The translations under genes and the position numbers were made by a program. This document shows positions 3 through 12,555 of a stretch of 12,555 nt of DNA, in pieces. Under the pieces are notes generated by a model. It made no database searches. It had not been told where the DNA came from and saw only the letters and a program-made list of their open reading frames with translations. The stretch covers positions 1-12,555 of the forward strand of contig JACCZQ010000114.1 in assembly GCA_013695905.1 (NCBI GenBank), given 5' to 3'. How positions within the stretch are numbered: the stretch's first letter is position 1; each line of letters begins with the position of its first letter. This DNA comes from Chthoniobacterales bacterium (lineage in GTDB: Bacteria; Verrucomicrobiota; Verrucomicrobiia; Chthoniobacterales; UBA10450).

Positions 3-656
3 TCCGACGGTCCGTGGCGTGAGGTCGTCGGAATCGTGGCGGATGTGCGCCAGAACGACTTCGCTGCTGAGCCGAAGATGCAGATGTACCTCAACTACGA
101 GCAGGTGATCTCGTTGGCTCCGAATGCGCTCGTTGTGCGCACAAAGGTGGCCCCGCTCAGCCTCGGGACAGCGGTGCGAAACGCCGTCTGGTCGATCGAC
201 AAGGATCAGCCGGTCTCCGACATCCGTTCCATGGAAGAGATCGTCTCCACCGCGGTCGCGCGGCAGCGCTTCAGCACGATGCTGCTGGGTGTCTTCGCTG
301 TGCTCGCACTGGTGCTGGCGGCCGTCGGCATCTATGGCGTGATGAGCTACACCGTGGCGCAACGGACGCGCGAGATCGGCATCCGCATCGCGCTCGGCGC
401 GCAGCGGAGTGATGTGCTGAAGATGACGGTGCAGCAGGGGCTGAAACTTGTCGGCATCGGAGTCGTCATCGGCGCCGTCGCGGCGCTGGTGCTCACCCGG
501 GTGATGGAAAGCCTGCTCTACGGCGTCAGCGCGACTGATCCGACCACGTTCGCCACGATCTCGGCGGTGCTGATCGGCGTCGCCGCGCTGGCGAGCTTCA
601 TTCCGGCGCTGCGGGCGACGCGGATCGATCCGATGGTGGCGCTGCGCTATCAGTAG
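3..656 (+). CDS. ABC transporter permease, FtsX/MacB-like (ADOP type), 3' part only
   Basis: The reading frame is open from position 3 to the stop at 654-656, so the gene begins upstream of the window; the GTG at 36 is internal, because codons before it read [11 protein letters not shown] in the usual family context. The visible part has the end of the periplasmic domain (VVGIVADVR, then [16 protein letters not shown]) followed by the C-terminal FtsX domain: a membrane segment from about [17 protein letters not shown] to GIYGVMSY, the cytoplasmic coupling stretch [15 protein letters not shown], two more hydrophobic segments, and the typical ending [17 protein letters not shown]. This pattern is typical of acidobacterial-type duplicated orphan permeases, which act with an ABC ATPase in efflux or envelope export; the substrate cannot be read from sequence. 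It converges on aroA with an 11-bp gap. Its last 174 bp recur at 4161-4334. Confidence 0.9.
476..656 (+). repeat. Direct repeat, copy A (permease 3' end)
   Basis: The last 174 bp of the permease gene (483-656) match 4161-4334 without a gap, with 12 mismatches counted by eye (about 93% identity). Similarity may extend to 476 if a 3-nt indel is allowed. Both copies end exactly at the stop codon; the sequences after it differ. Together the two copies bracket the aroA and pheA/aroF block. Confidence 0.9.
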
Positions 657-667
657 AAACAGGATCT

Positions 668-1954
668 TCACGCTGCGCAGAGGGCGCAGAGTTGCTCGGG
701 GAATCCGGGGTAGGACGTCGCGACACAATCCGTGTCGATGATGGTTGTCTCCCCGTGGGCGAACAGACCAGCGATCGCGAACGCCATGGCAATCCGATGA
801 TCGCCAAAGCTGTGCAACCGTGCCCCATGCAGCGGCCGGCCTCCCGTGATGACCATCCCGTCGCCGGTCTCCTCCACCTCCGCGCCGAGCGCACGCAGGT
901 TTGTGGCAATCGCGTTGAGCCGGTCGGATTCCTTGACGCGCAATTCGCCTGCGCCGGAAATCGTGGTGCGACCGTGCGCAAGTGCTGCCGCGACGGCGAG
1001 GACCGGAAGTTCATCGATCACATTCGCGATCTCATCGCCTCCGATGTGTGTGCCTTGCAGTTGGGCGCCGTCGATACGGACACGGCCGCTCGGCTCGGTA
1101 GCCGGTTCCGTGACCGCAACCTCGACGCCTGCTCCCATGGCCGAAAGCACCGCGAGCACGCCACTCCGCGTCGGGTTAAGGCCGACATTTTCCACGAGCA
1201 AAGATGAGCCCGGGCGAGCAGCAGCTGCGACAAACCAGAACGCCGCGCTCGATATGTCTCCGGGCACGGAAAAGCTGCGCGCCTGCAGAGTTTGTCCGCC
1301 GGTGATCGAAACGGTGAGCCCGGCGCGATGCACGGCGACGCCGAAATGATCGAGCATTTGTTCGGTGTGATCGCGACTGAGCGACGGCTCGCTCACTGTG
1401 GTGACGCCGCGCGCGAACAGTCCGGCGAGGAGCACTGCGCTTTTAGCCTGCGCGCTGGCGGTCGCGAGCGAGTGCTCGATCGACTGCAGATGAGCGCCTT
1501 CGATCATGAGGGGCGGGCGCCCGTCTGGGCCTTCCGCGTGCACCGTCGCGCCCATGCGCGTGAGTGGCTCGATGATGCGGCGCATCGGTCGCGTGGAAAG
1601 CGAGCGGTCTCCCGTGAGGCGGGTGTGAATTGGCTGGCCCGCAACCAACCCGGCGAGCAGGCGCATGGTTGTGCCGGAGTTTCCGCAATCGATCGCGCCT
1701 GGCGCTGGCCGGAACGTGCCGCGACATCCTTGCACTACGAGCGTCGTGGGTTCGGGAACCTGAATGGTGACGCCCAACGCGCGCATCGCGTCCACTGTTC
1801 GCATGCAATCTGCGCTCGGCAGGAAGCCCCGAATCTCCGAGGTGCCGTCGCTAATGGCGGCGAGCAGCACGGCGCGATGTGAGATACTTTTGTCTCCCGG
1901 CACCTGCAGCGTGGCCTGAATCTGCGGCACGGGTCGAATGATCCAATCGGCCAT
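668..1954 (-). CDS. aroA: 3-phosphoshikimate 1-carboxyvinyltransferase (EPSP synthase)
   Basis: Transfers the enolpyruvyl group of PEP to shikimate 3-phosphate, the sixth shikimate-pathway step, in the cytoplasm. From ATG 1954 the protein has 428 residues, the usual size. Visible motifs: PGDKSISHRAVLLAA (about 19-33; K22, S23, R27 for substrate binding), GNSGTTMRLLAG (91-102), GDRSLSTRPMRR (R122), SAQAKSAVLLAGL (167-179), SRDHTEQML, VIDELPVLA (catalytic D314), RVKESDRL (E342, R345) and GDHRIAMAFAIAG (384-396). RPMRR, SAQxKSAVLLAGL and SRDHTE resemble the Bacillus/CP4-like type more than the E. coli type. The frame extends upstream to 2023, but the family's N-terminus (xxIxPxxxxxGxIxVPGDKSISHR) begins close to M1954; ATG 1984 is a weaker alternative. 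No clear Shine-Dalgarno sequence is seen. It is divergent from the pheA/aroF fusion, across 143 bp. Confidence 0.96.
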   Translation of the reverse strand: MADWIIRPVPQIQATLQVPGDKSISHRAVLLAAISDGTSEIRGFLPSADCMRTVDAMRALGVTIQVPEPTTLVVQGCRGTFRPAPGAIDCGNSGTTMRLLAGLVAGQPIHTRLTGDRSLSTRPMRRIIEPLTRMGATVHAEGPDGRPPLMIEGAHLQSIEHSLATASAQAKSAVLLAGLFARGVTTVSEPSLSRDHTEQMLDHFGVAVHRAGLTVSITGGQTLQARSFSVPGDISSAAFWFVAAAARPGSSLLVENVGLNPTRSGVLAVLSAMGAGVEVAVTEPATEPSGRVRIDGAQLQGTHIGGDEIANVIDELPVLAVAAALAHGRTTISGAGELRVKESDRLNAIATNLRALGAEVEETGDGMVITGGRPLHGARLHSFGDHRIAMAFAIAGLFAHGETTIIDTDCVATSYPGFPEQLCALCAA

Positions 1955-2097
1955 GGTTGCTGTCGTGAAGGGAATGCAATTCATCTCATTGCAGGTCTGC
2001 CCCCCGCAACGAAGATTACTCAATAACGCGCACCGCGGCAGCAGCTCGAGTTTTCTTCGAATGCCGCCGGTGTCGCGGTTCCAAAATCCGATCGATC
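1955..2097. promoter_or_regulatory. Divergent intergenic region between aroA and the pheA/aroF fusion
   Basis: These 143 bp separate the two divergent aromatic genes and must hold the promoter or promoters for at least the fusion gene. I see no confident -35/-10 pair, no phenylalanine-rich leader peptide and no attenuator hairpins. A short GATCGATC palindromic run lies just before ATG 2098. The regulatory role is inferred from position only. Confidence 0.35.
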
Positions 2098-4128
2098 ATG
2101 CTCGAAGAATTACATTCCGTCCGCACCCGACTCGATGAACTGGACCAGCGACTCGTGCAGGCTCTGGCCGAGCGGCAGCGTCTGGTCGCGGAGGTGGCGG
2201 CGTTGAAAGCAGATCCTGCGCTGCCGTTACAGGATGCCGGGCGCGAGCGCGATCTGCTCGGGCGGGTTGCGAAGCTGGCTGAAGCCGAACACCTCGACGG
2301 CTACTTCGTCCAGTCGCTTTACCGGCGAATTCTCGAACACTCCGTCCGGTTCCAGGCAGCGCGGCAGGGTCAAAGCGAGGAGACGGGCGCGCTCCTGGTC
2401 GCTTACCAGGGGGTGGAAGGATCCTACAGTCACGCCGCCGCGCGAGCACACTTCGGGGCCTCTCCGCGGACGGTTCGGCATCACGGTTACCGGTCGTTTC
2501 CCGCCGCGCTGGAGGCGGTCACAAACGGCGAGGCGGAGTTCGCGATTCTGCCGATCGAGAATTCGGTCGTCGGTTCGATCACGGAAACCTACGACCTGCT
2601 CGGGCGATCCGATCTGCACCTGATCGGGGAAGAAATTCTGCGGGTGGAACATTGTCTCCTCGCCCTGGAGCAGGTGCCGCTGGGCTTGATCCGTCGCATC
2701 GGTTCGCATCCGCAGGCGCTGGCGCAGTGCAGCACTTTTCTGGAGGCGCTGGAGGATTGCCGGGTGGAGTTCGAAGAAGACACTGCGAGCGCTGCGATGC
2801 TGGTGGCCGAATCGGGCGATCTTTCCCGGGGAGCGATTGCGAGTGAGGAGGCGGCCGCTCGCTACGGGCTCCAGGTTTTGAAGCGAAGCGTCGCGAATCA
2901 GCGGGAGGTTTATACACGCTTCGTGGTGATCGGGCGGAAACCGCGGACCGCCGATGCCCGGCTCCCGCACAAGACATCGCTGCTGCTGACGATGGCGCAT
3001 GCGAAAGGCGCTCTGGCGCAGGGTCTCGACGTGCTCGCCCGCAAGGGAGTGAATCTGACCAAGCTCGAATCGCGCCCGAGCCCGGAACGGCCCTGGCAAT
3101 ACATGTTTTACATGGATTTCGAAGGCGGTCTCCACGAGTCGCATGTCGCGGAGGCGCTCGCCGAATTAGGCAAACACGCTGAAGCCGTCCGTGTGCTCGG
3201 CTCTTATCCGCGAAGCGTGGCGGGGACTGCGACGCAGATCGATTACGCGAACCGCAGCGGCGAATCGGCGCTCGCACCGCCGGCGCCAAAACCTGCGGCG
3301 GGCCTCACCCCTGCGCAGGAAAATCGTTCCTACCGACTCGGCTCGCGCCACCATCGCGCCGAAGACACCGTCATCGAGATCGGCAAGGTGAGAATCGGAG
3401 GCGATGCGCCTTTCGTCCTCATCGCCGGACCGTGCTCGGTCGAGTCAGACGAACAGATCACCCGCTGCGCCCGGGCGTTGCACGAGGCGGGCGGCAGTCT
3501 TCTCCGCGGCGGCTGTTTCAAACCGCGAACTTCGCCCTACGATTTTCAGGGACTCGGGCTCGACGGGCTTGCCCTCATCCGCGCGGCCGCCGATGCCTAT
3601 GGCCTGGCTGTCGTTACGGAAGTGGTGCATCCCGGCGATGTCGAGGCGGTCGCCCGGGAAGCCGACGTGCTGCAGCTCGGCGCGCGGAACATGCAGAATT
3701 TCGCGCTCCTGAAAGCGGTCGGCAAAACGCGCCGGCCGGTGGTGTTAAAGCGCGGACTGATGGCTTCCATCGATGAATGGCTGGCAGCTGCCGAGTACAT
3801 CATGAGCGAGGGAAACCCGCGCGTCATTCTGTGTGAGCGCGGTATCCGCACCTTCGAGACCGCCACCCGCAACACACTTGATCTTTCCGCGGTCCCCGTG
3901 CTGCGGGAGCGCACCCATCTGCCGATCATCGTGGATCCCAGCCACGCCGCGGGCCGGCGTGAATGGGTCGCGCCGCTGGCCCGCGCCGCCCGCGCGGTGG
4001 GAGCAAATGGCGCGATGCTGGAATTCCATCCCGAGCCCGAGCGGGCGCTCTCGGACGGCCGGCAATCGCTCGAGCTGGATCAATTTGCCGCGCTCGCGGC
4101 GGAGCTGCTGTCGCCGGTGGTGCGCTGA
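2098..4128 (+). CDS. pheA-aroF: Chorismate mutase / prephenate dehydratase / ACT / DAHP synthase fusion
   Basis: A 676-residue protein with four domains. Residues 1-90 are an AroQ-type chorismate mutase; the E. coli PheA active-site residues appear at a constant offset of two (R9, R26, K37, D46, R49, E50, Q86). Residues about 98-280 are prephenate dehydratase ([24 protein letters not shown] 151-161, catalytic TRF at 273-275). Residues about 291-372 are an ACT domain with the phenylalanine-site motifs GALA (304-307) and ESRP (324-327). A Pro/Ala-rich linker (about 376-420) leads to a type I-beta DAHP synthase barrel (about 425-672: [49 protein letters not shown]). Metal ligands C446, H616, E642 and D653 are all present, each offset by 344 from the Thermotoga enzyme. 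The protein would thus catalyse both the entry into the shikimate pathway and the conversion of chorismate to phenylpyruvate. No strong Shine-Dalgarno precedes ATG 2098. I use a composite symbol because no standard symbol covers all domains. Confidence 0.95.
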
Positions 4129-4334
4129 CGCTGCTCCCGGAGCGGACGAGCGTCGCGTTGGCGCTGGTGCTCACCCGAGTGATGGAAAGCCTGCTCTACG
4201 GTGTCAGCGCGATCGATCCGGTGACGTTCGCGACGATCTCGGCGGTGCTGATCGGCGTCGCCGCACTGGCGAGCTTCATCCCGGCGCTGCGGGCGACGCG
4301 GATCGATCCGATGGTGGCGCTACGGTATCAGTAG
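4129..4334 (+). pseudogene. Detached 3' fragment of an FtsX-like ABC permease gene (direct repeat, copy B)
   Basis: Immediately after the fusion stop codon, an open frame ending in TAG at 4332-4334 encodes the last 58 residues of an FtsX permease ([18 protein letters not shown] through PMVALRYQ). Positions 4161-4334 align without gaps to 483-656 (12 mismatches in 174). Most differences are silent; the visible protein changes are near SAIDPVTF versus SATDPTTF. Clear similarity starts around 4151; 4129-4150 is not recognisable. No ATPase-coupling region, no other membrane segments and no credible start remain, so it is a gene remnant or a recombination scar rather than a functional gene. Confidence 0.8.
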
Positions 4335-4349
4335 CGCGGGCGAAGAACG

Positions 4350-4373
4350 ATGGTGGCGTTGCGCAATCAGTAA
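4350..4373 (+). pseudogene. Third miniature copy of the permease C-terminal tail
   Basis: Sixteen bases after the stop of the permease fragment, the sequence encodes MVALRNQ and a stop, nearly repeating the MVALRYQ-stop ending at 633-656 and 4311-4334. About 20 of 24 bases agree. It is too short to be a gene; it looks like the residue of another permease 3' end or of a small tandem duplication. Confidence 0.5.
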
Positions 4374-4429
4374 AGGGGCAAAGAACAACGCGAGTGCAAA
4401 CCCGTATCTTCTCGCTCGCCGCTGCCAAA

Positions 4430-4664
4430 AGCACCGGAGGTGCGACGGAATAGAGCCCGGAGTGCAGCGGAACTCCGGGTATGACGACGACCAGCCGAGA
4501 GGCCAAACCCGTGAAACGGGTGACGGAAAATCGCGATGCCATAACCGTCATCGATGGCAGACTTCCGTCGCCCCTCCGGGGCTGCACATCCTTACAAACC
4601 TTGCATTACCCGGAGCTCCGCTTTGCTTCGCTCCGGGCTACATTCCGTCGCGCCCTTCGGGCGC
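4430..4664. repeat. Composite palindromic intergenic repeat, copy 1
   Basis: A nested inverted-repeat element. Outer arms 4442-4462 and 4631-4651 are reverse complements at 19 of 21 positions. Second arms 4468-4480 and 4608-4620 match at 12 of 13. Inside are a GACGGAA/TTCCGTC pair (about 4522-4528 and 4563-4569) and three small hairpins: 4507-4521 (6-bp stem, GAA loop), 4570-4582 (5-bp stem, TCC loop) and 4650-4664 (6-bp stem, TTC loop). The same architecture with strongly similar outer arms recurs at 11212-11454. It lies between the permease remnant and the convergent accA 3' end. The frames that cross it (for example from 4462 and 4481) are taken as non-coding. Confidence 0.85.
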
Positions 4665-4733
4665 TGGAGGTGGCGCTCGCCTGCTCGCTCTGCAGTCCGC
4701 CGGGCGGCTTAGGTCTGCATTCCGTTAGCTGGT
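4665..4733. other. Short intergenic stretch beside accA, no gene seen
   Basis: Between copy 1 of the palindromic repeat and the accA stop codon the sequence is GC-rich with short internal repetition (CGCTCGCCTGCTCGCTC) and a CCGCCGGGCGG run. I see no gene and no clear terminator with a T tract. Confidence 0.4.
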
Positions 4734-5726
4734 TTAGCTCTGCGCTCCGGCGGCTCGGCGGGACTTTGTGCCTTCGGCGAAGTTGCCGAGCTTCCGGAAT
4801 TTTTCGTAGCGATGTTTCAACAGCTCCTCGGTGCTCATCGCGGTGAACCGCTCCAGGTTCCGCCGTAACGCGCTGCCGAGATGCGCCGCCGCCAGGTCAT
4901 GGTCGCGATGCGCGCCGCCTTCCGGCTCCTGCACCACTTCATCGACCACGCCGAGCCGCATCAAATCATCTGCGGTCAGCTTCAAGGCTTCGGCTGCCTC
5001 AGGAGCGTGCCGGCGATCCTTCCACAAAATCGCGGAGCACGCCTCCGGGCTGATGACGGAGTAGTAGGCGTTCTCGAGAATCATGACGCGATCGGCGACA
5101 CCGATCCCGAGGGCACCGCCGGAGCCACCTTCCCCGATGACGACGGCGAGGATCGGCACCCGCAGGTTCATCATTTCGCGGAGGTTCACCGCGATCGCTT
5201 CCGCGATGTGCCGCTCTTCGGATCCGATGCCGGGGTAAGCGCCCGGGGTGTCAATGAGACAGATCACCGGCAGATCAAACTTCTCCGCCATTTTCATGAG
5301 GCGAAGCGCCTTGCGATAACCTTCCGGATAGGCGCAGCCGAAATTTCGCTTCACGTTTTCCTTCGTGTCGCGGCCTTTCTGCTGCGTGATGACAGCGCAA
5401 TGGCGGGTGCCAATTTTCGCCAGCCCGCACGGCATCGCCTTGTCGTCGCCGAAGACGCGGTCGCCGTGCAGCTCCACCCACTCGCTGAAGCAGCGCGTGA
5501 CGTAATCGAGCGCAAAGGGGCGTTGGATGTGACGGGCGATCTGCACATGCTGCCACGCGGTGAGATTTTCGTAAATATCGCGGCGCGTCTCGCGGATCTT
5601 CAATTCCATCGATTCCACCTCGCGTTCGAAGTCGAGGTCGTGCTCGTGCGAATGACTTTTCAGATCCTGCAGGCGGCGCTGCAGCTCCAGGATCGGCTTT
5701 TCAAACTCGAGCGGCTGAACTTCCAT
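4734..5726 (-). CDS. accA: Acetyl-CoA carboxylase carboxyltransferase subunit alpha
   Basis: Alpha subunit of the AccAD carboxyltransferase, which moves the carboxyl group from biotin on AccB to acetyl-CoA, giving malonyl-CoA for fatty-acid synthesis. The protein has 330 residues. It has the AccA-type N-terminus LEFEKPILELQRRLQDL, a helical stretch to about 60, then the crotonase-fold domain: YVTRCFSEWVELHGDR (75-90), QQKGRDTKENVKRNFG (115-130), LPVICLIDTPGAYPG (152-166), SEERHIAEAIAVNLREM, and the glycine-rich oxyanion-hole segment GEGGSGGALGIG (198-209), followed by YYSVISPEACSAILWKD. The open frame extends to 5768 inside the upstream gene, but AccA proteins start just before the FExPI motif, favouring ATG 5726. 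It begins 4 nt after the LysM gene's stop, so translation is probably coupled. The last 15 or so residues are a basic, alanine-rich tail. The partner accD is not in the window. Confidence 0.97.
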   Translation of the reverse strand: MEVQPLEFEKPILELQRRLQDLKSHSHEHDLDFEREVESMELKIRETRRDIYENLTAWQHVQIARHIQRPFALDYVTRCFSEWVELHGDRVFGDDKAMPCGLAKIGTRHCAVITQQKGRDTKENVKRNFGCAYPEGYRKALRLMKMAEKFDLPVICLIDTPGAYPGIGSEERHIAEAIAVNLREMMNLRVPILAVVIGEGGSGGALGIGVADRVMILENAYYSVISPEACSAILWKDRRHAPEAAEALKLTADDLMRLGVVDEVVQEPEGGAHRDHDLAAAHLGSALRRNLERFTAMSTEELLKHRYEKFRKLGNFAEGTKSRRAAGAQS

Positions 5727-5730
5727 CGGA

Positions 5731-6573
5731 TCAATCCGTAATGGTGACAGGGGTCTTGCTATTAACAAGGCCGCTCAGCTCCTCCACGTCGCCCGCCACC
5801 ATGCCGAGCCCGGTCGGGGGCGGGGGCACGCCACCGGGTTTCGGCTCGGCGGCGGTCGGCTCGGGGTACAAATAGTAACCGGGGGCGGCTAGTCGGATCC
5901 ACCGGAGGCTGCCGATGTATTCCTTCGTGCCGAAGCCGACGCGTTGCCCATCGCGCCAGGCGAAGGTCTCCGCCACGCGGGTGGTGATCCGCGGCGACTG
6001 CTTCGGGCCGAGCTTCACGTTCAACACCCGGTAGCGTTTGAAGAATTGCCCTTTATCGAGCAGCACCACGCGCTGCTCCTTCCGCTGGATAAAGAGCGAG
6101 AACTCCGGCTGCGAAATCAGGAGCCGATCGCCAATCCGCAGCATCGTGCCGCTGAGATTGTTTGTCCGCATGATCAGCTCCGGTGTGGTCTTCATGCGGT
6201 TCGCCACCCGCGCCAGCACGTCGCCGCTCCTGACCACGTACTCCTTTTTTTCCGGGGACGGATATTTCGAGAGCAGAATGTCGATATTGACGTCGCCGAG
6301 CAGGTCCTTCGCCTGCTCGGAGCGCTGGCCCTGCGGATACTTGACGAGGAACTGGGTGAGCGCCTGGCGCGCCTCGGTGAGACTCCCTTCCTGGCGGAGC
6401 TTCGCCGCGGCCTCAAACTCCGGCAAGCTCACATCGGGCCGCTCCTCCTCGACAAACTCGCCGCGCTGTTCCGCGCGCACCACCATCTCCGGCTTGACGA
6501 AGATGTGGTAGCCGAAAAACGCGGCGCTACCGAAAATCACCACCGCGAGGAGGAGAGCGAAAAGCCATTTCAT
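5731..6573 (-). CDS. Membrane-anchored LysM protein with degenerate L,D-transpeptidase (YkuD) domain
   Basis: A 280-residue envelope protein. Residues 4-22 form one N-terminal membrane segment or uncleaved signal. Residues about 50-100 are helical and TPR-like (LRQEGSLTEARQALTQFL, then YPQGQRSEQAKDLLGDVN). Residues 111-154 are a LysM peptidoglycan-binding domain (YVVRSGDVLARVANRM, then NNLSGTMLRIGDRLLI). Residues 156-280 follow the layout of a YkuD domain: VVLLDKGQFFKRYRV, FGTKEYIGSLRW, GYYLYPEP where active enzymes have GxGIHG, and GLGMVAGDVEEL followed by TPVTI where active enzymes have the SxGCxRM catalytic motif. The catalytic Cys and His are both absent, so peptidoglycan cross-linking activity is unlikely; a structural or wall-sensing role is possible. 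It precedes accA by 4 nt and follows the DUF2007 gene by 97 nt, on the same strand. The start is the only well-placed ATG; no clear Shine-Dalgarno is seen. Confidence 0.85.
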   Translation of the reverse strand: MKWLFALLLAVVIFGSAAFFGYHIFVKPEMVVRAEQRGEFVEEERPDVSLPEFEAAAKLRQEGSLTEARQALTQFLVKYPQGQRSEQAKDLLGDVNIDILLSKYPSPEKKEYVVRSGDVLARVANRMKTTPELIMRTNNLSGTMLRIGDRLLISQPEFSLFIQRKEQRVVLLDKGQFFKRYRVLNVKLGPKQSPRITTRVAETFAWRDGQRVGFGTKEYIGSLRWIRLAAPGYYLYPEPTAAEPKPGGVPPPPTGLGMVAGDVEELSGLVNSKTPVTITD

Positions 6574-11194: not shown

Positions 11195-11211
11195 ACGTCC
11201 ACTGTGATCCA

Positions 11212-11454
11212 CAGCACCGAAGGTGCGACGGAATAAAGCCCGGAGTGGAGCGTCAGCGGAACTCCGGGAAGTCCACCACGTTGAGAGACCAAGCCCCCGG
11301 AGGGGGCGACGGAACGCGCTACGCACACGCGGTGCAAACGCGAGTCGCGTCCTTCCGTCACCCCCTTCGGGGGTTTGACGTTTTTAGCGTGCGGCGGTCC
11401 CGGAGCTCTGCTTCGCGTCGCTCCGGGCTTTATTCCGTCGCACCTCCGGTGCTG
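11212..11454. repeat. Composite palindromic intergenic repeat, copy 2
   Basis: The outer arms 11212-11245 and 11421-11454 are reverse complements at 33 of 34 positions. Second arms lie at about 11257-11269 (CGGAACTCCGGGA) and 11398-11410. The inner part has hairpin 11293-11307 (6-bp stem, GGA loop), GACGGAA, a variable spacer, TTCCGTC, and hairpin 11360-11374 (TTC loop). Order and arms match copy 1 at 4430-4664; the spacer differs. It begins 18 bp after the nfo stop and ends about 86 bp before the IS110 transposase start. Confidence 0.9.
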
Positions 11455-11539
11455 TGCTGTTGGGAAAGCACACTGACTGTGTTCTCCACTACTGTCCGCG
11501 CGCTCGCGGACGCTTAGATGACATGTAAGGAGTTGCCGG
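11455..11539 (+). other. IS110 left flank: possible bridge-RNA region
   Basis: Between the palindromic repeat and the transposase start are GTGCT/AGCAC pairing (about 11454-11471), a perfect 7-bp hairpin at 11494-11511 (GTCCGCG, loop CGCT, CGCGGAC), and AAGGAG at 11527. IS110-group elements are known to encode a structured bridge RNA in the non-coding end upstream of the transposase. The exact element boundary and RNA cannot be read from one copy, and the stretch is shorter than the known IS621 bridge RNA. Confidence 0.3.
11527..11532 (+). promoter_or_regulatory. Shine-Dalgarno sequence deciding the transposase start
   Basis: AAGGAG lies 7 nt before an in-frame GTG at 11540 but 37 nt before ATG 11570. 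It is the strongest Shine-Dalgarno match seen in the window and favours GTG 11540. Confidence 0.55.
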
Positions 11540-11569: not shown

Positions 11570-12555
11570 ATGAAAAATGAGTTGAACTCAGAGTTGTCCT
11601 CACCCGAGGGAACCCGCGGTCAGTTTAATGACCGCCCGAGCACGATCAAGCTCGGAATCGATGTCCACCAGGCGTTCTACGTGGTGGTGCTGCAGGAAGG
11701 CGGGAGCAATCCCAAGCCGCCGCAGCGTTTCAGCAAAGAGGCTTTCCTGGTCTGGGCGGCGAAGCTGAGAGCGAAACATCCCGGCGTCCAGCTCCACGCC
11801 GTCTACGAAGCGTGCGGTTTCGGGTTCGGCTTGCAACGGGCCCTGACTGCGCGCGGGTTCAACTGCCTGGTGGTCTGCCCGCAGAAGCTGGACGAACGCC
11901 AGCAGCGGGTGAAGACCGACGGGCGCGATGCCCGCACCCTTTGCCTGAAGCTGAGTCGCTATGTCGAGGGAAATAAGGAAGAGCTGGCCGTGGTGCGGGT
12001 GCCGAGGGAAGCGGAAGAGCAAGCCCGCGCCCTGCACCGGCAGCGCGAACAGCTGGTCCGGACGCGCAAGCAGCTCGAAGCGCACGGCCGCAGTCTGCTG
12101 GTCAATCACGGCTGCGAGCCGGTCAACAAATGGTGGAAGGCGCGCGCCTTCACCACCCTTGCGGTCCCGGCCTGGCTGAAGGAACTGCTCGGCCACACCC
12201 AGCCGCTCCTCCTGGCGCTCGAAGCGCAGATCCGGGCCCTCACCGTGCAGTTGCAGGCCGCCGCCGCGCCCGACCAGCCCCGCGGCCTGGGCGCCCTGAC
12301 CAGCGTGGTGCTCGACCGGGAAGTCTGCTCCTGGGAGCGCTTCGCCAACCGGCGGCAGATCGGGAGCTACACCGGCCTCTGCCCGGGCGAACACTCGAGC
12401 GGCCAGACCCGTCTCCAAACCTGCGTGACCAAGCACGGCAACCCGCGGCTGCGCGCCGCCCTGGTCGAGCTGGCCTGGCGGATGGTCCGCTTCCAGCCCG
12501 AGTACCGGCCGGTCGTGAAATGGAGAAGAATCCTGGCCAAAGGCGCCCTCGCCAC
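11540..12555 (+). CDS. IS110-family transposase, 3' end beyond the window
   Basis: The frame is open from 11522 to the window end. Numbered from ATG 11570, the N-terminal DEDD (RuvC-like) domain has D31 (KLGIDVH), E80 (YEACGFG), and D117 and D120 (KTDGRDAR). A basic, glutamine-rich helical middle (about 145-235) leads to the C-terminal Tnp domain with GALTSVVLDREV, the stretch FANRRQIGSYTGLCPGEHSSG with the conserved serines S276/S277, and TKHGNPRLRAALVELAW. About 328 residues are visible; the family is usually 330-400, so only the end is missing. These enzymes are RNA-guided recombinases rather than DDE transposases. GTG 11540, with AAGGAG 7 nt upstream, adds ten residues (MRGIEPTPDN) and is preferred here; ATG 11570 is the alternative. 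No stop or frameshift is seen, so it may be active. Confidence 0.93.
   Translation, partial: MRGIEPTPDNMKNELNSELSSPEGTRGQFNDRPSTIKLGIDVHQAFYVVVLQEGGSNPKPPQRFSKEAFLVWAAKLRAKHPGVQLHAVYEACGFGFGLQRALTARGFNCLVVCPQKLDERQQRVKTDGRDARTLCLKLSRYVEGNKEELAVVRVPREAEEQARALHRQREQLVRTRKQLEAHGRSLLVNHGCEPVNKWWKARAFTTLAVPAWLKELLGHTQPLLLALEAQIRALTVQLQAAAAPDQPRGLGALTSVVLDREVCSWERFANRRQIGSYTGLCPGEHSSGQTRLQTCVTKHGNPRLRAALVELAWRMVRFQPEYRPVVKWRRILAKGALA

Follow-up and report, generated by a model that had tools for sequence, protein, structure and literature searches.

Fusions of chorismate mutase (CM) with prephenate dehydratase (PDT) and with DAHP synthase (DAHPS) constitute known cases of regulation in aromatic amino acid synthesis. 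In PheA, the P-protein of the E. coli type (AroQ-PheA-ACT), an N-terminal CM_2 domain is followed by PDT and an ACT domain. In the type I-beta CM-DAHPS enzymes, represented by the structures 5j6f and 3nvt (presumably of the Bacillus type), an AroQ-type CM and an I-beta DAHPS form a single chain; in other I-beta DAHPS, the barrel is preceded by an FBD or CM domain with a regulatory role. The opposite order, DAHPS-CM, without PDT or ACT, occurs in Porphyromonas and Prevotella, where the fused halves are described as interdependent (PMC12202928). Larger fusions are mentioned by Song et al. 2005 (PMC1173090): in Shewanella oneidensis, aroQ-pheA is fused to an aroAI-beta ‘pseudogene’, and in Archaeoglobus a four-domain TyrA-AroQ-PheA-ACT protein combines three catalytic domains with ACT.

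The window, i.e., the whole stretch of 12,555 nucleotides of Chthoniobacterales DNA analysed here, contains a gene that merges the CM-PDT and CM-DAHPS kinds of fusion in one frame of 676 open codons whose sole stop is terminal (Table 1). Like PheA, its product begins with CM_2, PDT, and ACT in that order and bears the same catalytic and phenylalanine-binding motifs; it differs from PheA by an additional C-terminal DAHPS barrel. With CM-DAHPS it shares the AroQ-type CM and the I-beta DAHPS on a single chain, but PDT and ACT intervene, so that CM does not stand directly before the barrel as its regulatory domain. The order CM, PDT, ACT, DAHPS is that of the S. oneidensis fusion as printed in PMC1173090; there, DAHPS is called a ‘pseudogene’, whereas its residues are intact in the window. 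The Archaeoglobus fusion, according to that paper, has a dehydrogenase in the place of DAHPS. Spirochaete DAHPS-PDT-ACT proteins also join DAHPS to PDT-ACT, albeit in the opposite order and with no CM found.

Table 1. Features of the window and of the stand-alone relative in genome G391 (positions, strand, and basis of assignment).
Feature	Position	Strand	Basis
Left direct repeat, 3′ end of FtsX-type permease gene	476..656	+	Repeat comparison
Second, divergent aroA (EPSP synthase)	671..1954	-	Pfam; tree; divergently oriented to fusion
CM-PDT-ACT-DAHPS fusion gene	2098..4128	+	676 aa, open frame
Chorismate mutase domain (AroQ-type, CM_2), residues 8-86	2119..2355	+	Pfam; 1ecm alignment; conservation
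Prephenate dehydratase domain, residues 101-282, TRF motif 273-275	2398..2943	+	Pfam; 2qmx alignment
ACT domain, residues 294-358, GALA 304-307, ESRP 324-327	2977..3171	+	Pfam; conservation
Pro/Ala-rich linker, residues 377-410, predicted disordered	3226..3327	+	pLDDT <50
Type I-beta DAHP synthase barrel, residues 425-667	3370..4098	+	Pfam; TIGR01361; metal/PEP residues
Right direct repeat (184 aligned positions, 92% identity with 476-656)	4151..4334	+	Repeat comparison
accA, start of genus-anchoring block	4734..5768	-	accA identity; synteny; Pfam
G391 stand-alone CM-PDT-ACT	L193:6219-7361	-	380 aa, 68% identity

All four domains exceed their curated Pfam cut-offs: CM_2 (68 bits), PDT (184.8 bits), and DAHP_synth_1 (273.6 bits), together with ACT, which passes marginally (27.6 bits versus a cut-off of 27). 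Among the NCBIfam models, TIGR01361 (DAHP_synth_Bsub) assigns the C-terminal part to type I-beta (381.4 bits, cut-off 267.75), and the middle passes the prephenate dehydratase equivalog PRK11898 (233.9 bits, cut-off 219). The protein stays below the bifunctional CM/PDT equivalog PRK10622 (284.7 bits, cut-off 577) and exceeds the CM-DAHPS model PRK12595 (405.8 bits, cut-off 279), the best stretch of which covers residues 407-670 only. Sequence matches to solved structures span all parts: 1ecm for CM, 2qmx for PDT-ACT, and 1rzm, 4grs, and others for DAHPS, chains that we take to be E. coli, Chlorobium, and Thermotoga enzymes. The 4grs entry appears in the match list as a DAHPS of two named molecules and is presumably the engineered transfer of an ACT-like domain that rendered DAHPS feedback-sensitive; in its layout, the natural fusion appears similar to this construct. 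Promoter and terminator scans of positions 1900-4400 and an Rfam scan of the whole window found nothing.

Alignment to structures places the residues that we assume to be the catalytic, metal, and phenylalanine-site residues of CM (R9, R26, K37, D46, R49, E50, S82, Q86), PDT (T273-R274-F275), ACT (GAL 304-306, ESRP 324-327), and DAHPS (C446, H616, E642, D653, K475, R477, K551, R581); in the latter, the Cys, His, Glu, and Asp presumably constitute the four metal ligands and the Lys and Arg residues bind PEP. Their conservation was read from 116 rows of at least 640 residues, namely P0001, and 115 of its 120 best relatives (five shorter ones were excluded), a sample of best matches that is therefore biased towards intact proteins. 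Within it, all the listed CM residues except R9 (114/116, two gaps), T273 and R274 of PDT, E324, R326, and P327 of ACT, and all the listed DAHPS residues except C446 (113/116, two gaps and one Ala) are invariant; F275 is kept in 113 and S325 in 111 rows. The single frame, the catalytic and metal-binding residues of three enzymes, and the Pro/Ala linker between the halves, all put forward by the first-pass annotation, are thereby borne out, and the alignments support one polypeptide with three intact predicted active sites and a phenylalanine-type ACT domain. The accompanying description of the protein as uniting the first and the last enzymes of phenylalanine synthesis holds for the first enzyme, the entry enzyme DAHPS being present. 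PDT yields phenylpyruvate and the final step is a transamination, for which the fusion protein encodes no enzyme.

A whole-protein search (8000 candidates scored, 4902 retained at E 0.001, best 120 listed) revealed that the architecture, which the first-pass annotation did not recognise as standard, is shared by more than 100 full-length relatives. Precomputed domains comprise CM_2, PDT, and DAHPS in 119 of these best 120 of 4902 (P0073 lacks CM_2), ACT being frequently uncalled. One of them, P0002, is identical to the window's fusion protein. Relatives at 84, 83, and 82% identity over 99-100% of the length lie on other contigs, which makes a sequencing or frameshift artefact very unlikely, and the frame is open across residues 375-425, where a stop or frameshift, if seen on resequencing, had been named as evidence against the fusion. 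Source names among the best 120 include Chthoniobacterales, Rhodothermales, Rubrivirga, Bacteroidetes, and Phycisphaerae; the annotations read ‘bifunctional DAHPS/chorismate mutase’ (a databank name that misses PDT), ‘DAHP synthase’, or ‘chorismate mutase/prephenate dehydratase’. A scan of species-genome contigs returned at least 80 loci; among the matches listed, L004, L005 (Melioribacter), and L006 (Myxococcales) carry CM_2, PDT, and DAHPS in the order of the fusion, with ACT below cut-off in L005 and L006 and unlisted for L004, and L021 (Eremiobacterota) carries PDT, a weak ACT, and DAHPS without CM. Of 167 plasmid-collection records with a match, none spans 80% of the query in one place, and in a phylum sample (n=288) a full-length match occurs in the window's genome only, among the matches listed. 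P0247 and P0250, which are listed without DAHPS, were rejected as examples of separate halves, as their ends look frame-shifted by eye. In the metagenome frame P0251, an aminotransferase end runs into the start of a close fusion relative, possibly an operon with the last phenylalanine step. No report on an intact four-domain enzyme was found in a search of open papers, and the fusion is absent from the portions seen of a fusion survey (PMC4921024) and an archaeal fusion survey (PMC11237513); the same domain order is on record for Shewanella in Song et al. 2005 (PMC1173090). As far as these searches show, the architecture is a recurrent one in several bacterial groups, a variant of known fusion kinds that has hardly been studied.

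Trees of both halves fit a fusion that would be old. The N-half tree, for which 154 rows were thinned to 50, clusters fused and separate PheA proteins but does not sort them cleanly: there are five label changes, at least two of which are forced by starred branches. One of the forced changes is G391, whose gene sits inside a 133-kb contig; no other close relative was found in which PheA is clearly a separate protein. Close relatives with the halves as separate genes had been named as evidence against the fusion; this genome is such a case, yet it nests inside the fused clade, and a grouping of 23 fused rows without G391, defined in the light of the first tree, fails the AU test (p 0.0004). G391 therefore appears to have lost its DAHPS half secondarily. 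In the C-half tree (38 fused rows and 37 others, root arbitrary), a 98% branch parts 36 stand-alone, CM-fused, and Spirochaete rows from all fused rows plus L021, a split with which a single origin would be compatible; several fused rows with a degenerate DAHPS form very long branches. The Spirochaete DAHPS-PDT-ACT arrangement occurs at seven loci among the matches listed (L015, L017, L018, L019, L047, L050, L075), with an N-terminal FXD domain in L015 (3770-5722), the one scanned. In L015, L019, and L047, three of these seven loci, the DAHPS forms its own branch among stand-alone enzymes, apparently reflecting a second, independent fusion, an indication that selection has favored joining these steps more than once. 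Ratios of dN/dS in the closest fused pair, G407/G480, amount to 0.25 for CM, 0.03 for PDT, 0.04 for ACT, and 0.05 for DAHPS (0.23, 0.07, 0.05, and 0.09 in G407/G468) and support purifying selection acting on all four domains; pairs that include the window's gene approach or reach saturation.

The reading that we favor, with moderate confidence, is that of a trifunctional enzyme whose ACT domain exerts phenylalanine feedback on PDT and probably on DAHPS, and which was gained together with aroA as a cassette. The C-terminal barrel would convert PEP and erythrose 4-phosphate to DAHP, and the N-terminal half would convert chorismate via prephenate to phenylpyruvate. The ACT domain would bind phenylalanine and feed back on PDT; it probably acts on DAHPS too, because it is tethered directly before the barrel, at the place where other I-beta enzymes carry FBD or CM. 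A single phenylalanine signal would then set pathway entry and branch together, and such ACT-mediated co-regulation of both halves is plausible. Architecture, residues, selection, and setting are read from the sequence; the three activities, phenylalanine control of DAHPS, and acquisition over retention are what we infer from it. The fusion and the second aroA would have arrived as a small cassette in a lineage mostly without CM and PDT, where they would restore the route to phenylpyruvate.

The genomic setting is consistent with such a cassette. The window's genome has one PDT and one CM_2 match, both within the fusion, at 76.7% completeness. It also has a second DAHPS of 356 aa and another aroA, so that these parts of the pair are unneeded for the common pathway. 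Chorismate synthase was detected in 77 of the 83 family genomes, as against 6 for PDT and 5 for CM_2; among the 30 better genomes (at least 90% complete, at most 5% contaminated), the numbers are 29, 2, and 2, the survey of the branch covering the CM_2 and PDT domains. PDT is fused in four of the six PDT-bearing genomes, namely G000, G407 (with a second copy at a contig end), G468, and G480; G391 has PheA without DAHPS, and the PDT of G486 is a distant one (36% identity) that a contig end truncates. The survey fits the published accounts of ‘Candidatus Udaeobacter’, in which the phenylalanine pathway lacks two of three enzymes and the tyrosine pathway was not identified (PMC7343977; PMC10665431), with the caution of the authors of PMC7343977 that missing enzymes need not equal auxotrophy. 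Judging by the names attached to its protein hits, the window's lineage is probably related to bacteria described as amino acid auxotrophs.

The aroA gene of the pair (mechanical ORF 668-2023, with an upstream TTG start) is 55-60% identical to near-complete family copies, including the other aroA of this genome on G000:C113 (58%), which groups with its own genus in the tree. Against 120 listed database kin, identity is 64-68%, except for one match at 98%, P0122. For both P0122 and the identical fusion protein P0002, the longest contig listed has 3819 bases, so that the pair probably lies together on one other contig. Direct repeats flank aroA and the fusion, with no integrase or transposase between them. 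The FtsX-type permease gene, the 3′ end of which forms the left repeat, has many relatives in the genomes compared; a copy at G000:C162:1-535 (L232) is 91% identical, and its 3117-base contig ends near the repeat. To the right of the pair lies the order accA, LysM, DUF2007, DUF420, followed by YhdP-like and AP endonuclease-like genes. The first four occur together in all eight relatives read, five of them genus mates, and the YhdP-like gene is next in six and the endonuclease-like gene in five of the eight, some stretches being contig-cut. In none of the eight accA stretches is there a match to the fusion, aroA, or the permease at E 1e-10. Of the six genus mates, five have an accA that is 85-88% identical, and one has no match. 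Taken together, accA identity and synteny indicate that the contig is native and that the aroA-fusion pair looks inserted. The divergent aroA, the 92% repeats, the native contig, and the rarity of PDT and CM_2 in the family thus suggest an acquired phenylalanine cassette. Elsewhere in the window, two REP- or MITE-like repeats, each of about 240 bases (4430-4666 and 11210-11456), are imperfectly palindromic and mutually related in both orientations, and an IS110/IS116-type transposase at 11573-12553 reads towards the window end.

An ancestral family gene that was retained here and lost elsewhere is a tentative alternative to a newly gained cassette, on the doubtful side. Three genera of the family have fusions (g1, g157, g162) and a fourth (g155) has PheA without DAHPS, and GC does not set the pair apart (64.5% for aroA and 65.3% for the fusion versus 60.8-65.1% for the flanks). 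Against retention stand the adjoining divergent second aroA, the flanking repeats, and the lack of a PDT match in all six genus mates (66-93% complete).

On the functional side, the fusion might secure only co-expression and equal amounts of the entry and branch enzymes, with independent halves and a DAHPS that is not under ACT control, which we consider rather unlikely. The AlphaFold2 model (64 fusions as input) has a mean pLDDT of 90 and a pTM of 0.58, with pLDDT below 50 in the linker (35-38 per block of ten); the domains are thus predicted to fold, and the mutual placement of the two halves is given without confidence. A linker that is variable (25-75 residues between positions 372 and 412), predicted disordered, and fast-evolving in G407/G480 (dN/dS 0.70) suits independent halves, and a study of exported CM-CDT fusions reported no catalytic gain from fusion (PMC10520331). 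On the other hand, linker size is restricted, 123 of 133 fused rows falling within 31-46 residues, and linker dN/dS is 0.19 in G407/G468, at a dS of 2.5 that is near saturation. Splitting the domains of the related Porphyromonas DAH7PS-CM costs activity in both halves (PMC12202928). Tied expression with a shared phenylalanine signal ranks as the likeliest benefit of the fusion, and tied expression alone ranks next.

An assembly chimera or contaminant contig is improbable. The assembly is fragmented (2.8 Mb, 561 contigs, 76.7% complete, 2.6% contamination), repeats lie at the junctions, and the fusion is rare in the order (4 of 213 genomes), which had raised the question of contamination. This origin was set aside on the accA identity, nearest to genus mates, and the block synteny described above; in addition, the repeats are 92%, not 100%, identical, and the pair seems to recur on another contig.

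It is likewise improbable that the DAHPS half of the window protein serves chiefly in structure or regulation and is on its way to becoming a pseudoenzyme, a fate that has apparently befallen relatives. An N-half search, whose length window favors short proteins, listed twelve further fusions of at least 640 residues. DAHPS residues are intact in three (P0265, P0270, and P0279, the last absent from the trees), and metal and PEP residues are lost in nine, in all of which Pfam still recognises DAHPS. One loss pattern is shared by P0293 (named Myxococcaceae), P0331, P0335, and P0337, and a second by P0319 and P0289; single patterns in P0305, P0333, and P0323 could include frameshifts. The two shared patterns suggest retained pseudoenzyme domains over sequencing errors. 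These degenerate fusions recall the Shewanella DAHPS ‘pseudogene’ fused to aroQ-pheA (PMC1173090). Together with the G391 PheA, they indicate that the DAHPS activity of the fusion is dispensable in some lineages. The window protein, by contrast, retains every DAHPS residue examined, and dN/dS of this domain is low among fused family relatives. Channelling between the halves, which the first-pass annotation had entertained and for which physical linkage alone speaks, is highly improbable, as DAHPS and CM catalyze non-consecutive steps with six steps by other enzymes between them, and the linker is predicted to be flexible.

A wider reading of the trifunctional, ACT-regulated enzyme joins all of these elements and is, as a whole, unlikely. 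PheA's ACT would have become the allosteric domain of DAHPS, so that a single binding of phenylalanine shuts both the first step and the branch steps, as a natural equivalent of engineered ACT-DAHPS chimeras; the repeat-flanked aroA cassette would regain the phenylalanine branch in soil Verrucomicrobia that lost it; and the barrel that decayed elsewhere would persist there as a dead, retained regulatory domain. What is new is the setting, a fusion beside a second aroA in a lineage mostly without the phenylalanine branch. A single protein of this kind would report whether a tethered phenylalanine sensor can gate pathway entry, and the intact, halved, and apparently catalytically dead versions within the fusion family provide a ready comparative series. 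For the window's lineage, the fusion may mark the regain of the phenylalanine branch via a two-gene cassette.
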